This document shows, in pieces, positions 8,283 through 14,465 of a stretch of DNA of 64,000 nt. The notes under the pieces are model-generated. The model had not been told where the DNA came from. It made no database searches and worked only from the letters and a program-made list of their open reading frames with translations. The DNA is from an uncultured bacterium (GTDB lineage: Bacteria; UBP6; UBA1177), in NCBI GenBank assembly GCA_905233945.1, contig CAJOFY010000018.1, positions 1 to 64,000 of the forward strand. The letters are read 5' to 3'. Within the stretch, counting starts at the first letter, position 1, and each line of letters starts with the position of its first letter. The position numbers were made by a program, and so were the translations under genes.

Positions 8283-10091
8283 TTAATCAATCATTAAAGC
8301 TGAGCAGCCGGAATCTCCTTCTACACAGTGGTAGTTCTTGCAGACAAGGCCAGCATCGCAGGTGCCGTCATCATAGCACGGACCGGTTAATTCACCTGGC
8401 TGGATATCGCTGCCGTATTCTTCTCCGGAATCGGTAGAATCTGTATTAGTGGTATCGGAATCAGCAGACTCTGTATCTATTGCAGTATCTGTATTTGCGA
8501 TGTCGGTATCCGCAGAATCTGTATCTGCGATGTCAGTATCTGCGATGTCAGTATCTGCGGTATCAGTATCTGTTGCAGTATCAGTGTTTGCGGTATCGGT
8601 ATCTCCGGAATCAGAGTCGGTATCGGACGAATCTGTGTCGTTATTATCGCCTGGATTCGTATCAGAGCCTTTTACACATTCGTAGTTCTCGCAGACAAGG
8701 CCTGCATCGCAGGTTCCGTCATCATAGCATGGACCGGTTAATTCACCTGGCTGGATGTCGCTGCCGTATTCCGGTCTGTATGTATCGACGCTCACAATGA
8801 GGAAATTTGTGTAGACTGCATCCTGATTTGCGCCGATTTTGAGGTTAAATTCGGTATCTCCCGGAAAGAACATTGTGTCGAAAGGAGAAATTTTTGTGTT
8901 GACAAGGAATGTATCGTTGTCAATTGCGTATTCGATCGGGTTAGTCGGATCAAGCGGATTGTCCGGGTTTCCGATACATGTTTCCATATGGTCTTTCCAG
9001 CCGTAAATAGAAGAAATCGAGTTGAATATTTCGGTGTAATTGTAATCCTGATTGTAGCTGTCTTTATTTTTTTGGGGATTGCACTTGTTGAAAAGAAGCT
9101 GATAGTTTTCAGGATCCTGCTGACCACTGATTGAGAGACCTTCCCCGAAAATACCAAGTGATACACCGCTTCCCATTGAATTGGCCATGCCGGGATCACC
9201 TTCAAAAGCGACGAGCCCTAGTTTGATGTATGCTTCTTCGGGAAGTTCAAAACCGCTGACCTTAATGGAACTTTCCTGAAATCTGTAATTTTCGAGACCA
9301 TGATAAAAATAAATCTTTTTTGCAAAAACATGTGATGATTTGTAAATCAGCGGAAGTGCCCAGCCGCCTGTCATCGCACTTTGTTTCAGATAATAGCAGT
9401 GATCGGATGATTCGATGCCTTTGACAGTATAGTTTCCGTAAAGTGCAGTGCCGGAATTCATACCTTTAGCTTTTCCTTTAGCGATAATTTCTTTCATAAA
9501 GGCCGAAACATCAACTCTGTAAGTGTAGACTCCGAAATAATTAGCGGTTGCTCCAGGACAGTATTTTTCAGTCTTAAGGTCGCTGTGTGCTGTGTCACGG
9601 ACAGCCTCATATTCAAAATCGCCTTTTTGTATTGATGCAAGATTTCCTTCGATCGAAGCTGTTACAGTTTTTGTTAAAGTTATCGAAGGGTCGCTTGCGT
9701 TCGTGAAGGAAAGTGTTACCGAATTATCTGTGTTTCCTTCCATGTTGTCGGGATCCTGATCTGCAAGCCAGATGAGAAATGCTCGGTCAATTTCGGCGTC
9801 TTCAGGAATGTGTTTTGATGTGAGGGTGTAGGTTGAACCGATATTCTGGTTGATAAGTGTGTCGGCTTGAGGATTATTCGGCATTTCTTCTCCGGTACTC
9901 GGATCTATAGCGGCTGCCTTGTTCTCAGGGCTTCTTTCAAGAGCTGTTTTGTGCATGATGAAGAAGTCCCAGTTGCCTTCTTCCCATTTGAGCTCGGTTC
10001 CATCGGGAGCAACAGAGATTCCGGTATCGCCGATTGCGGCAGATAATAACGTCGGGATTAAAAATACGAAAACCATTAAGAATTTTTTCAT
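8283..10091 (-). CDS. Secreted protein with Asp/Thr-rich repeat linker between duplicated Cys modules
   Basis: A 602-residue exported protein with a Sec signal peptide (residues 1-18) and no lipobox. Residues 20-440 form a large unrecognised domain, probably beta-rich. Then comes a module EYGSDIQPGELTGPCYDDG with GTCDAGLVCENYECV, a linker of repeated ADTD/TDTA units, and a near-identical second copy of the module. The two module copies are also duplicated as DNA (8668-8771 and 8317-8420). The linker resembles those of other lipoproteins here and probably acts as a flexible spacer. The gene starts 15 bases after the desulfidase stop codon and is bracketed by a 21-bp direct repeat. Function unknown. 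Confidence 0.75.
   Translation of the reverse strand: MKKFLMVFVFLIPTLLSAAIGDTGISVAPDGTELKWEEGNWDFFIMHKTALERSPENKAAAIDPSTGEEMPNNPQADTLINQNIGSTYTLTSKHIPEDAEIDRAFLIWLADQDPDNMEGNTDNSVTLSFTNASDPSITLTKTVTASIEGNLASIQKGDFEYEAVRDTAHSDLKTEKYCPGATANYFGVYTYRVDVSAFMKEIIAKGKAKGMNSGTALYGNYTVKGIESSDHCYYLKQSAMTGGWALPLIYKSSHVFAKKIYFYHGLENYRFQESSIKVSGFELPEEAYIKLGLVAFEGDPGMANSMGSGVSLGIFGEGLSISGQQDPENYQLLFNKCNPQKNKDSYNQDYNYTEIFNSISSIYGWKDHMETCIGNPDNPLDPTNPIEYAIDNDTFLVNTKISPFDTMFFPGDTEFNLKIGANQDAVYTNFLIVSVDTYRPEYGSDIQPGELTGPCYDDGTCDAGLVCENYECVKGSDTNPGDNNDTDSSDTDSDSGDTDTANTDTATDTDTADTDIADTDIADTDSADTDIANTDTAIDTESADSDTTNTDSTDSGEEYGSDIQPGELTGPCYDDGTCDAGLVCKNYHCVEGDSGCSALMID
8317..8420 (-). repeat. 104-bp coding repeat, C-terminal copy
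   Basis: Near-identical to 8668-8771, with about ten differences. It encodes the module containing GELTGPCYDDGTCDAGLVC. Confidence 0.75.
8668..8771 (-). repeat. 104-bp coding repeat, inner copy
   Basis: Partner of 8317-8420. The two copies flank the Asp/Thr-rich linker of the same gene. Confidence 0.75.
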
Positions 10092-10106: not shown

Positions 10107-10127
10107 TTATTTGCACGTCATAATATC
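10107..10127. repeat. 21-bp direct repeat, right copy
   Basis: Covers the last codons and the stop of the desulfidase frame. It matches 8251-8271 with one mismatch. Confidence 0.7.
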
Positions 10128-13100
10128 AAGGATCACTTCGTCGGTTTTTTCCATTCCTTCAGAAGCAACTGTCGCAAGATTTTTGATTGTCTTTTCGATG
10201 TCGCGCTCGATTATTCCGTCGGTTTCGGAGATCTCGATGTTTTCGATCGCAAGAAGGGCGCTCTGAAGTGCGGCGTTGATCGTCGTCGAGACTTTAAGTG
10301 CGCATCCAGCCTTCGCGCCGTCGCAGATCATGCCGGAAATGTTTCCTATCATGTTTTTGATCGCGTAGTTTATCTGCGTTAAGTTTCCGCCCAGAAGGTA
10401 TGTGATCCCGCATGCGGCTCCTGTTGATGCGGTGACTGTGCCGCAGAGAGCTGAAAGTTTCGACATGAATTCTTTCAGATGGATCGCTATCAGGTTGCCA
10501 AGGTAAAGTGCGCGGATGAGTTTTTCCTCGCTTGAACCGAGTCTTTCTGCAGTCGCGACTATCGGCATCATAACTGTGATCCCCTGATTTCCGCTCCCTG
10601 AATTACTCATAACTGAAAGGGTGCAGCCCGCCATTCTCGCGTCGCTTGCCGCAGCGGTCAGAGCCATTGCGTAGTTTGCAAGGTCGTCTGCAAGCAGACC
10701 TTTCTGGACGTTGAGGCGCAGAGTTTTTCCGACACGCAGACCGTAGTCGCCGCTCAGGCCTTCGAGTGCGATCTTTTTGTTCATTTCGGCACCTTCAAGA
10801 ACGTAACGGATCTTTTCAAGCGGAACTTTGTTGATGAAATTCCAGATCCCTTCGACCGTCATGTGGTATTCCTGCGTTTTCTGGCTGTTTTCGTTCCAGT
10901 CGAACGAGAAGGCGTTGCACGATTTCTGCGAGATTATTTTGCCGTTGAGTTCTGTGAGAACGATATTCGTGTGGCTTCCGCAGATAACTGTTCTTGCGCA
11001 CTCTTTGCCGCTGAAACATATTGCTTCGATGTAGAGTTTATCTACTTTTTCCTTCATCGAAACGGCGATCTCACCTTTTTTTACCATCTCTTTCGCCTGG
11101 GCGATGTGCTCTTTTGTAACTCCGCTCAGCACTTCAAGCTCTTTCGAAGGATCTCCGCCTTTGATCCCGAGCGCAGCCGCGATAGGAAGCCCGACCATGC
11201 CTGTTCCCGGAATTCCGACTCCGAGGCCGTTTTTCATGATGTTGCCGCTGAGGGCTATCTCGGCTCTTTCTACCGGTCTCCCCAAAAGTTTTGCGGAAGT
11301 TGCCGCGGCAAGCGCCACAGCTATTGGTTCTGTGCAGCCGAGTGCCGGCACTACTTCACTGTTGAAAGCGTCGATGTAAAGCTGGAAATCCATCTCTTCC
11401 TCATTGTCTTCGTTTATGTTAGTGACTACTTTGAAATCGGTAAAAACACGGTATTCGTAAGCCTTGAGGTGAATATAGAAACCGTGTTCGAAAATATCTT
11501 CGGTGCTTAAAGTGTAAACGTGCCCGGAAATGAGTTCTTTGAATCGGACGAAAGTTCCTTTTTCCCTTCTGAGACCGAGGGCAAAATCGAGGTTGATCCG
11601 CCTGAGTTCGCCGCTTCCTTTATCGAGCCAAGCGCAGCTCTGCTTGATCCAGCCTGAGGTCTCCGCGAATCTGTTGTGGTAGAAAACAAGGACTTTGCTT
11701 TCCCCCCAGCCGTTGGAATATGCGAAAACGTTCTCGTCTACCGTGCCGTCCGACTTATAGAAATCGTAGAAGTGGAAATCGTTGACGTGTGCAAAAAGGT
11801 GGCGCAGATGCAGTAACGGGAAGATCTCGCGCTCGTGCCGCTCAACAAGCGCCTGATTGACAGACTCGTTTTTGTAGGCGCGGCGGTATTCCATGCCGTA
11901 TTTTTCTGAAAATCCCTCGATCTGGCCGTGTCCGAACATCGGAAGTCCCGGCATCGTGATCATAAGAAGGGTGACTCCGAAGTATTTGTCGTTATCTCCG
12001 AACTGCGCGACCGCCGTTTCTTCATCGGGGTTGTTGAGAAAGTTGACGTATCTTTCGAGAATGTGCGGATCGAATTCGAGAACGCTTTTTACAGACTGCC
12101 TGTATTTCGCGTTTTCCTCGTTTTTCATGAAGTTCATAAACGCGCTGTTGTAGACGCGGTGCATTCCCAAAGTGCGGACAAAATAGCCTTCCATAAGCCA
12201 GAAAGCCTCGGCCAAAAGCAGCGTGTCTGGTGCTTCGACAGCGACTCTGTCGACAACTTCGCGCCAGAATTCCTTCGGGAAAAGTTTGTTGAATTCTTCA
12301 GTCGTAAGTCCGTGTTCAGCGCGTGATGCGATGTCTCCGCCGCTTCCCGGTTCAGGGAACCAGAGTCTGTGATAGTGCCTTTTTGCAAGCGTCATCGCCG
12401 CATCAAACCTGATTACGGGGAAGTTTTTCGCGATTTTTATGATCGTCTGGATCACCTGTTCCCTGACGTCGGCACGCATATAGTTGAGTTGCGCCGTATC
12501 GTTCCACGGCATGCAGGTCCCGTCGTTTCCGTGGTAGATGTAGTCGGTTCTGCCTGTCCTGAAATCGACCCGTTTGAAAGTCACTGCCGCATCGCTTTTC
12601 GAATAGTAGTGGTCTTCGATATAGATCCCGATATTCGGGTCGTTCGAAAGGTTTTCGCCGTTGTAAGAGTAGGCAGGAAAAGGCGGTTCGTCAGATGAAA
12701 TGAACCATTCGGGATGCTCCGAGATCCACTTCGAATCTATCGCCGTGTGGTTGGGGACCATGTCGCTCGCAAGTCTGATCCCGTGTCTCCACGCCCTTTC
12801 ACGGAGATTCTGCATCGCCGCTTCGCCGCCGAGTTCAGAGGCTATTTCGTAGTCGTAAAGCGAATACGCACTTGCCGCAGCTTCGGGATTTCCCATTATC
12901 TGCTTTATCCTTTTTGAAGCTTTGCTGCGTTCCCACAAACCGATCAGCCAGAGTGCCGTAAAGCCGCGTCTGGAGAGGGTTTCAAGTTCTTCGTCAGGGA
13001 TCCTGTCGAGAGTGTGGATATCTGCTGAATACTGCTTCGAAAGCTGGTCGAGCCAGACAAAAATGTTTTTTGCGATCATTACGACTCGCGGCATCCAGAG

Positions 13101-13970
13101 CGAATCTTTCGAGAAATTTTCGTTCTCGGGGTCGCCGTCACCCCAGCCGTAAAGCGTTTCTTTTGTGAGCGCAGGAAAATTACCGCCTCCGCCCGGCCCG
13201 AAAACAGGTTTCGTCTCCTCTTTTATGATGTCTGCCGAAAGAAGGAGCATTTTTGAAAAACGTGCCGAGATCTTAACTCCCCAGTTTTTGCGGATAAATT
13301 CAAGCTGTCCCGCAAGTGAATCAGGAGAAGCCTTGAACGGAGCGCGCAGAAGGTCGAGAACAGAAACTTTTTCGCCTCCGGAATCTATTTTGGGATTTCC
13401 GGCAAAAAATCTTTCCGCTATATCAAAAAATCTGCCGTAAGCCGGATTTTCAGCAAGTTTTGCATCGCCAAAAAGTTCGTCAAATTCGGAAAAAGCGGGG
13501 TTTTCGTTTGCGATTTTAAGCAGAAGAACTTCTTCAAGTTCCGCAAGTTTATTGGGAACGCCGTCTGTCGAAGCAGCTAAGAATTCGGCCTCCGACATTC
13601 CGCCCGATGCGACTGCGCTTGTCGGGAATTCCCGGACAAAATCAAGAAGGAGTTTTTTGAAAGCGTCCCCTCCGATCTCACCCTCAGCAGTTTCAAAAAG
13701 TTTTTCCGGAAACTGCGGAAAAATTTCTGTTCTGTAAAGGTGAAAAACGAAGTGGCTGATTTCGTCGATAAGCCCCATCGCATAAAGGTTTCCCGGGGTT
13801 ATGTGTTTTTTGCTTTTTTCGGCGGCATACTTCGAATTGAGTTTGTAAGCGAAATTTTTCGCAGCCGCAAAATCGGCGAAAACAACATTCCCGGTAATCG
13901 AAAAAAGTTCTTTTGAAAGTCCGAAACGCTCTCTCGCGAGGCGGTTCACATGGAAGTGGTTCTTCTGCAT
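10107..13970 (-). CDS. GH13 alpha-amylase-family protein fused to a UPF0597 / cysteine desulfidase domain
   Basis: One uninterrupted frame of 1287 residues from the ATG at 13970. Residues 1 to about 855 are a GH13-type glycosidase with the (beta/alpha)8 elements DMVPNHTAID, the nucleophile in VIRFDAAMT (about 522), the acid/base in LLLAEAFW (about 585) and FGDND (about 657). Residues 860-1287 form a complete UPF0597 / L-cysteine desulfidase (CdsB/YhaM) domain beginning MDFQLYIDAFNSEVVPALGC followed by TEP. Cysteine desulfidase releases sulfide, pyruvate and ammonia from cysteine. The two halves are not known partners. The joint (about 13 residues, KVVTNINEDNEEE) reads like former intergenic DNA, and GAGG five bases before the internal ATG at 11393 could start the second half alone. 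The start at 13970 is 16 bases after the YqeY stop. Confidence 0.75.
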   Translation of the reverse strand: MQKNHFHVNRLARERFGLSKELFSITGNVVFADFAAAKNFAYKLNSKYAAEKSKKHITPGNLYAMGLIDEISHFVFHLYRTEIFPQFPEKLFETAEGEIGGDAFKKLLLDFVREFPTSAVASGGMSEAEFLAASTDGVPNKLAELEEVLLLKIANENPAFSEFDELFGDAKLAENPAYGRFFDIAERFFAGNPKIDSGGEKVSVLDLLRAPFKASPDSLAGQLEFIRKNWGVKISARFSKMLLLSADIIKEETKPVFGPGGGGNFPALTKETLYGWGDGDPENENFSKDSLWMPRVVMIAKNIFVWLDQLSKQYSADIHTLDRIPDEELETLSRRGFTALWLIGLWERSKASKRIKQIMGNPEAAASAYSLYDYEIASELGGEAAMQNLRERAWRHGIRLASDMVPNHTAIDSKWISEHPEWFISSDEPPFPAYSYNGENLSNDPNIGIYIEDHYYSKSDAAVTFKRVDFRTGRTDYIYHGNDGTCMPWNDTAQLNYMRADVREQVIQTIIKIAKNFPVIRFDAAMTLAKRHYHRLWFPEPGSGGDIASRAEHGLTTEEFNKLFPKEFWREVVDRVAVEAPDTLLLAEAFWLMEGYFVRTLGMHRVYNSAFMNFMKNEENAKYRQSVKSVLEFDPHILERYVNFLNNPDEETAVAQFGDNDKYFGVTLLMITMPGLPMFGHGQIEGFSEKYGMEYRRAYKNESVNQALVERHEREIFPLLHLRHLFAHVNDFHFYDFYKSDGTVDENVFAYSNGWGESKVLVFYHNRFAETSGWIKQSCAWLDKGSGELRRINLDFALGLRREKGTFVRFKELISGHVYTLSTEDIFEHGFYIHLKAYEYRVFTDFKVVTNINEDNEEEMDFQLYIDAFNSEVVPALGCTEPIAVALAAATSAKLLGRPVERAEIALSGNIMKNGLGVGIPGTGMVGLPIAAALGIKGGDPSKELEVLSGVTKEHIAQAKEMVKKGEIAVSMKEKVDKLYIEAICFSGKECARTVICGSHTNIVLTELNGKIISQKSCNAFSFDWNENSQKTQEYHMTVEGIWNFINKVPLEKIRYVLEGAEMNKKIALEGLSGDYGLRVGKTLRLNVQKGLLADDLANYAMALTAAASDARMAGCTLSVMSNSGSGNQGITVMMPIVATAERLGSSEEKLIRALYLGNLIAIHLKEFMSKLSALCGTVTASTGAACGITYLLGGNLTQINYAIKNMIGNISGMICDGAKAGCALKVSTTINAALQSALLAIENIEISETDGIIERDIEKTIKNLATVASEGMEKTDEVILDIMTCK
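11393..11402 (-). promoter_or_regulatory. Internal ribosome-binding site and ATG for the desulfidase half
   Basis: On the minus strand GAGG lies five bases upstream of an in-frame ATG (11393-11391). This would give a 428-residue protein, the normal length of UPF0597 proteins. Confidence 0.6.
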
Positions 13971-13986: not shown

Positions 13987-14424
13987 TTATGAAAGTGCCT
14001 TTTTGACGAGTCCGCTTGCCGTTTTTCCGTCAAACTGGCCGTCGTATTTTTTCTTGAGTTCAGCCATGACAGCGCCCATCTGACGCGGAGACTTGTCGGG
14101 AAGAGTTGCTACGATTTCTTCAATTACTTTAGCAAGTTCTTCTTCGGAAAGCTGTTTCGGAAGAAGTGATTCAAGTATCTCTTTTTCGCGGAGAGTTTCT
14201 GTTTTGTCCTTGCCCATTTCGTCCATCAGCGCGAGAGTCTCGTTCACGTTTTTGAGGAATTTCTTGATCATCGCGATAGTTTCGGCATCTGTCGTTTCGC
14301 GGTTCCCGTCGTTTTTGCCGACCATTACAGCCTCTGCGACTAAAGTCGAAAGGAGATTTCCTTTGACTGTATCTTTCTCAAGTTTCGCCTTCATCATCAT
14401 TTTTCTAAGTTCGCCAAGCAGCAT
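13987..14424 (-). CDS. GatB/YqeY-domain protein
   Basis: A 145-residue YqeY-family protein (PF09424), helical throughout, with the typical ending SPRQMGAVMAELKKKYDGQF and ASGLVKKAL. The domain resembles the tRNA-binding tail of GatB; the family is linked to tRNA amidation by homology, but its own role is not settled. The ATG at 14424 is preferred because GGGAGG precedes it; an upstream ATG at 14448 lacks this. A promoter is visible at 14466-14493, and the glycosidase-desulfidase gene follows in the same direction. Confidence 0.85.
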   Translation of the reverse strand: MLLGELRKMMMKAKLEKDTVKGNLLSTLVAEAVMVGKNDGNRETTDAETIAMIKKFLKNVNETLALMDEMGKDKTETLREKEILESLLPKQLSEEELAKVIEEIVATLPDKSPRQMGAVMAELKKKYDGQFDGKTASGLVKKALS

Positions 14425-14465
14425 TTTGACCTCCCTGTTTAAAACCAATTAAAAAAGAACGAAAA

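Follow-up and report, generated by a model that had tools for sequence, protein, structure and literature searches.

In-frame fusion of a GH13 glycosidase and an L-cysteine desulfidase with a conserved candidate internal start in a UBP6 genus

When two metabolically unrelated enzymes are joined in one reading frame, can the second keep a translation start of its own? The question is raised by a locus in a 64,000-nucleotide stretch of DNA (the window; positions 1 to 64,000 of contig CAJOFY010000018.1, assembly GCA_905233945.1) from an uncultured bacterium (GTDB lineage Bacteria; UBP6; UBA1177), in which a glycosidase with a glycoside hydrolase family 13 (GH13) catalytic domain is fused in frame to an unrelated enzyme, a CyuA-type L-cysteine desulfidase. 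A preliminary description had reported a single 1287-codon frame at 10107–13970; the frame is real and lies on the minus strand, which that description left out, running from an ATG at 13970 to a TAA at 10107–10109, and the plus-strand reading of the same positions contains many stops. Codons 1–859 comprise the glycosidase and a linker, and the final 428 comprise the desulfidase. The computed masses are 143.8 kDa for the fusion and 45.3 kDa for a product from the internal ATG, replacing the 145 and 48 kDa first given. We consider it reasonably probable, for the account as a whole, that the fusion arose by domain replacement, captured the leader of the desulfidase gene, kept the internal start within it and yields two products.

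A genus-wide fusion of two constrained enzymes

The preliminary description had suggested looking for a stop codon at the joint in relatives; an uninterrupted frame crosses the joint in 12 of the genus's 15 genomes (G000, G001, G003, G004, G005, G006, G008, G009, G011, G012, G013 and G014), and the fusions share protein identities of 68–99% over the stretch matched. In the other three, G002 (59% complete) gave no match to the fusion gene, G010 (72% complete) gave only a short weak match, to another amylase, and G007 has the two gene ends on separate contigs. The genus lives in the ruminant gut: named records with the fusion that state a sample give rumen, reticulum, abomasum, duodenum or reindeer. 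Most named records found for the genus are, judged by title or sample name, metagenome assemblies, which speaks for an assembly or sequencing error at the joint, but the same joint occurs in 12 assemblies whose linkers differ in both sequence and length, and such an error is therefore excluded for practical purposes. A frame break in the N-terminal domain of G001 adjoins an assembly gap of 18 Ns. A TAA flagged inside G004 was rejected as an interruption: it lies 5′ of the start region, and the open frame spans residues 20–1308. No second desulfidase was found among matches at an E value of 0.001 in any genome of the genus, several of which show the one gene in pieces. A literature search joining desulfidase, glycoside hydrolase and gene fusion, which fell short of the whole literature, found no paper.

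The desulfidase part is complete, as the preliminary description had held. It matches SDH_alpha (PF03313; 217.1 bits against a cut-off of 26.4; residues 964–1303) and the L-cysteine desulfidase of PDB entry 9he0 (E = 5.7e-30; residues 889–1306); these spans and the Pfam span of the glycosidase part below are numbered on a 1308-residue reading of the frame, which begins at an upstream in-frame TTG (14033, minus strand), where a start would overlap the neighbouring gene yqeY. For the L-cysteine desulfidase of Methanococcus maripaludis (MmCyuA), the available main text of PMC12647591, in which the words 'fusion' and 'fused' do not occur, describes a dimer and gives Cys23, Glu25 and the cluster cysteines 287, 329 and 336 as key residues. 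Their counterparts here are Cys879, Glu881, Cys1176, Cys1216 and Cys1223. The first two, the catalytic Cys and Glu of the GCTE motif (role as given in PMC12647591), are invariant in the alignment, and the three conserved cysteines are present and aligned, predicting by residues alone that a [4Fe–4S] cluster is bound. A Foldseek search with the predicted structure of the desulfidase part matched 9he0_A (E = 1.6e-19, template-modelling score by target 0.82, root-mean-square deviation 5.8). The underlying model covered residues 300–1287 at a mean predicted local distance difference test (pLDDT) score of 58, and only the match of the desulfidase part, the one part modelled well (mostly pLDDT 70–95, with low stretches), was used. 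Conversion of cysteine to pyruvate, ammonia and sulfide is the reaction predicted for the fused enzyme.

The glycosidase part matches Alpha-amylase (PF00128; 42.9 bits against a cut-off of 22; residues 350–719), and Asp403, Asn407, His408, Arg521, Asp523, Glu588 and Asp649 are invariant in the 11 family members aligned; by the GH13 motif, we take Asp523, Glu588 and Asp649 to be the catalytic Asp, Glu and Asp. No NCBIfam model came near its cut-off (best, 30.8 against 875), the nearest solved chains by sequence were 3dhu and 4gkl, and PDB matches were weak and local (alpha-amylases, maltooligosyl trehalose synthase and GlgE). Judged by these matches, similarity to named GH13 subfamilies is low and no particular sugar substrate is indicated. 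An AlphaFold2 model of this part built from eight close sequences had a mean pLDDT of 38 and was used for no fold search. Within the barrel, Asn-Pro-Asp-Glu is invariant in the 11 aligned sequences (window 11877–12986, minus strand; L057, L061, L059 and L063–L068) and also occurs in G052, from another phylum. GH13 enzymes usually have Asn-His-Asp at this site, and Asn-Pro-Asp-Glu may mark an unnamed GH13 subfamily.

Ratios of non-synonymous to synonymous substitution rates (dN/dS), computed for eight pairs, indicate that both enzyme parts are under constraint. In seven pairs within the genus, values were 0.02–0.05 for the GH13 domain and 0.01–0.09 for the desulfidase; in the pair with G004, the most distant member of the genus, they were 0.11 and 0.06, and synonymous sites there are close to saturated. 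The linker, for the most part, evolves faster (0.08–0.75 in the seven computable pairs, over 10–13 codons), and the N-terminal domain (13071–13970, minus strand) evolves far faster than the rest, sharing 43% identity with G004 where the two enzyme parts share 72% and 83%.

Replacement of the glycosidase C-terminal domain

Comparison across the order indicates where the joint came from: the desulfidase stands in the place of a C-terminal domain of the glycosidase, replaced near a domain boundary. The same glycosidase is present over most of its length in 9 of the 10 other genomes of the order (G015–G023; that of G019 was matched from residue 223 in a first search and further in a later one), and G024 (65% complete) has a fragment. 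Outside the genus, it continues past a strand (YRVFTDF here) into a helical domain of ~300 residues without a Pfam match. A search with this domain gave matches in 8 of these 10 genomes and none in the 15 of the fusion genus, the two misses being G019, whose contig ends ~120 residues beyond the strand, and G024, which has only the gene fragment. The preliminary description had taken both enzymes to be complete; for the glycosidase, which is without this domain, that does not hold. In a second phylum, the glycosidase occurs in 32 of 80 genomes, and at 20 loci, from 20 of the 32 matched genomes, a profile built on the C-terminal domain gave weak matches (11–26 bits) at 16; among the four others, L089 is cut short, and L079, L086 and L087 look alike by eye. 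No desulfidase was listed by blastp (E 0.01) in those 20 loci. Because the domain is present across the order and, weakly, in the second phylum, and in 0 of 15 genomes of the genus, it is old and was lost in the fusion genus. A HIRAFxxYQNWW stretch is present in all six C-terminal domains aligned (L057:1950–2864, minus strand; L061:4105–5025, plus strand; and relatives).

In three sister genera, represented by G015, G016 and G017, the desulfidase is a free gene whose contig is not that of the glycosidase; the G015 copy is cut by a contig edge (134 residues). For G018 and the six genomes of the order's other families, no match was listed. Upstream, the free gene has the same neighbour in G015 and G016 (73%); the gene downstream encodes an MMPL transporter in G016 and, in G017, an M16 peptidase. 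The desulfidase is also free at eight other loci, with open frames of 428–457 residues. In a 23-row desulfidase tree that has Clostridiaceae and others as outside sequences, the copies from UBP6 fall together (100/100), 11 fused copies are split from the two free UBP6 copies (99/94), and the fused group as drawn has 91/91; the tree omits G009, which its contig cuts, G007, which has just the late part, and G015, with its 134 residues, and carries a long-branch warning at L030, L031 and L055. The simplest reading of this tree is one fusion with the native gene as donor.

The history first proposed, loss of a stop codon between adjacent genes of an operon, agrees with the short linker and its leader-like bases, but a glycosidase domain of ~300 residues has also gone, and the free desulfidase of G015, G016 and G017 has other genes beside it. 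Because the C-terminal domain was replaced and the desulfidase lies elsewhere in the sister genera, stop-codon loss is contradicted as the whole story and could stand only as a last step after truncation; we consider it highly improbable.

An invariant Shine–Dalgarno core and ATG at the joint

The preliminary description had read the joint of about 13 codons as former spacer, with a GAGG at the right distance from an ATG at 11393. The linker is indeed short (residues 847–859), and its end is probably the former leader of the desulfidase gene. The GAGG lies at 11399–11402 (minus strand), five bases 5′ of the ATG at 11391–11393, and a Shine–Dalgarno (SD) core and the ATG are invariant in all 12 joints. 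Many relatives carrying the fusion without an internal start would, according to that description, have pointed to a selected bifunctional enzyme; many relatives are fused, but all 12 keep the internal SD and ATG. The window reads GAG GAA GAG ATG at this place, and the leader of the free gene in G016 reads AAG GAG ACG GAA ATG, likewise with GAG as the third codon before the ATG. The fused frame of G004 (AGG GAG GAT GAA ATG) matches this G016 leader at 11 of 15 bases, counted by eye, and the free gene of G015 has GGA GGA GGT TCC ATG.

Across the 12 genomes, this GAG is the sole invariant codon among the ten linker codons before the ATG; the base after it is always G, and the flanking codons vary (Lys/Asn/Arg on one side, Glu/Asp/Val/Lys on the other). 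Over 3152 nucleotide positions (only those filled in at least 11 of the 12 genomes), there are four invariant GGAG/GAGG/AGGA cores, at two other places and at the internal start, and among 27 invariant ATGs only the internal one has an invariant core 4–10 bases upstream. By our arithmetic, the chance of this for a given ATG is ~1% (4 cores × 7 spacings / 3152). Weaker tests agree: the mean SD energy at the internal ATG is the best of 25 invariant in-frame ATGs, 15 of 1057 codon columns equal it when the weakest genome is taken and 20 when means are compared, and its GAG is one of 3 among 61 invariant Glu columns to be GAG throughout. Third-position conservation around the start is raised but unexceptional. 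The comparison supports a retained internal start, and ribosomes probably also start at ATG 11393.

Alternatively, the 144-kDa bifunctional chain could be the sole product, with the internal SD and ATG as relics kept by chance or for the amino acids they encode. In keeping with this, the residues past the Met are conserved as protein too, the internal SD is moderate in energy, and in a test of Glu columns alone, 3 of 61 invariant columns are wholly GAG, that of the linker among them (in this alignment, the rows of G003 and G004 are untrimmed at the start codon and those of G001, G009 and G011 are partial). Arguing against it are the lone invariance of one linker codon and its next base amid varying neighbours, and the stronger internal SD (−11.3) of G004, the most distant member of the genus. 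We judge a fusion-only product unlikely, if still a serious contender.

Several observations weigh against a retained start and the history built on it. The energy of the internal SD is moderate, −5.6 kcal/mol for the window genome, and 9.75% of 13-base stretches drawn at random do equally well. Of the 45 genes in the window, 42 could be scored, each at whichever ATG among its first 60 codons did best, a choice that biases the comparison towards strong SDs; 29 of the 42 surpass the internal site. No 16S rRNA was found in the window genome, and the usual bacterial anti-SD was used. Ranked by the weakest genome, the internal ATG comes second, another invariant ATG being slightly better, and the 15 or 20 codon columns of equal strength can also be held against it. 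Predicted folding of the mRNA around the internal start, which covered 7 of the 12 genomes, ranges from weak (G014) to average (G013) and lends no support. A clear SD was not seen at the free gene of G017, and the leader comparison draws on G016 and, less closely, G015. The genomes of the genus are related, and 12 of 12 thus amounts to fewer independent tests. The breakpoint can be placed only between the last conserved strand of the glycosidase and ~12 bases 5′ of the desulfidase ATG. Finally, residues 736–845, beside the joint, have a dN/dS of 0.46 with G004 versus 0.04–0.10 in the other pairs, and this region may be relaxed. Such strong divergence, like the loss of a domain that relatives keep, would suit a glycosidase part that is an inactive remnant, a mere carrier for the desulfidase; the GH13 motif residues are, however, invariant in 11 sequences and the barrel dN/dS is as low as given above (0.02–0.05, and 0.11 versus G004), which makes a remnant very unlikely.

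Having weighed these points, we favour the following history. In the ancestor of the genus, a yqeY-linked GH13 gene would have lost its 3′ end, encoding the helical C-terminal domain, and in its place the desulfidase gene, together with the final bases of its leader, would have been joined in frame and kept since. The SD sequence of the leader would thereby have become linker codons and been conserved. Ribosomes starting at ATG 13970 would make the 144-kDa chain and those starting at ATG 11393 a 45-kDa free desulfidase, from one mRNA, and fused and free chains could pair through the CyuA dimer interface. A further-reaching proposal, which we hold to be doubtful, is that this is a selected dual-product gene in which the desulfidase dimer serves as a new assembly module replacing the C-terminal domain and the internal start determines the proportion of free to fused chains; if true, a single complex would link an enzyme of sugar polymers to the breakdown of cysteine and the release of sulfide.

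Gene setting and comparison with known systems

Table 1. Coordinates of the fused gene, its parts and its upstream neighbour in the window
Feature	Position	Strand	Basis or remark
Fused coding sequence, 1287 codons, 143.8 kDa	10107..13970	-	Open across joint in 12/15 genus genomes
Glycosidase N-terminal domain, residues 1-300	13071..13970	-	No Pfam match at E 0.01; fastest evolving domain
GH13 catalytic domain, residues 329-698	11877..12986	-	Pfam PF00128; invariant columns
Glycosidase remainder past barrel, residues 699-846, ending in the YEYRVFTDF stretch	11433..11876	-	Sequence comparison
Linker, residues 847-859, variable in sequence and length in 12 genomes	11394..11432	-	Comparison
Internal Shine–Dalgarno core GAGG, first base nine bases 5′ of internal ATG	11399..11402	-	Invariant 12/12
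Internal ATG, codon 860, desulfidase start	11391..11393	-	Invariant 12/12
CyuA-type L-cysteine desulfidase, 428 residues, 45.3 kDa	10107..11393	-	Pfam, PDB and fold match
yqeY, upstream neighbour	13987..14448	-	Also adjoins glycosidase in G015, G016, G017, G018 and G019

The frame starts 16 bases past the yqeY stop, and ATG 13970 has a poor SD (−3.2); its start is perhaps coupled to yqeY. The glycosidase follows yqeY in G015 to G019 and not in G020, G021 and G023 (a third family, three genomes checked). In G014, two opposite-strand genes lie between yqeY and the fused gene (L070:14190–16523), and the fusion is therefore independent of the yqeY link. In G004, a CTP synthase frame of the same orientation shares 10 bases with the end of the fused gene (L067:1699–3372, minus strand), and the operon setting therefore differs there. 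Behind the fusion, the window encodes a 602-residue protein (8283–10091, minus strand) in which Asp-Thr/Ser-Ala repeats form a long run and a segment containing Cys is present in two copies; other genes take its place in G006, G014 and G004.

The locus looks like a single-origin fusion of metabolically unrelated enzymes, both of whose parent genes remain separate in outgroups. Two questions can be put to it: does a fusion of this kind persist because its second gene is able to retain a start of its own, and what was the function of the lost C-terminal domain? In practice, gene callers may report just one of the two enzymes for these bacteria.

Each half has a known counterpart. MmCyuA (PDB 9fsl, 9fyi, 9he0 and 9he2) is covered over residues 14–394 of 400; in the published portion available, its Cys23, Glu25 and three conserved cluster cysteines all have counterparts here, and the fold matches. 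Unlike MmCyuA, which is a stand-alone protein, the desulfidase here bears 859 N-terminal residues from the glycosidase side. The glycosidase shares with the GH13 alpha-amylase superfamily the conserved barrel motifs, with Asp, Glu and Asp where expected; it differs in that all 11 aligned sequences have Pro, not His, ahead of the third catalytic Asp, and in its N-terminal and, outside the genus, C-terminal domains without Pfam matches. For the arrangement as a whole, the closest likeness is to SpaO, HrcQ and RpnL/RpnS, genes described, in the portions of the sources available, as having internal in-frame starts that give a long and a short protein: there too, a C-terminal part is made separately from the same frame. 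In those systems, the short form corresponds to part of a single protein, whereas here it would be a whole unrelated enzyme that has a gene of its own in sister genera.

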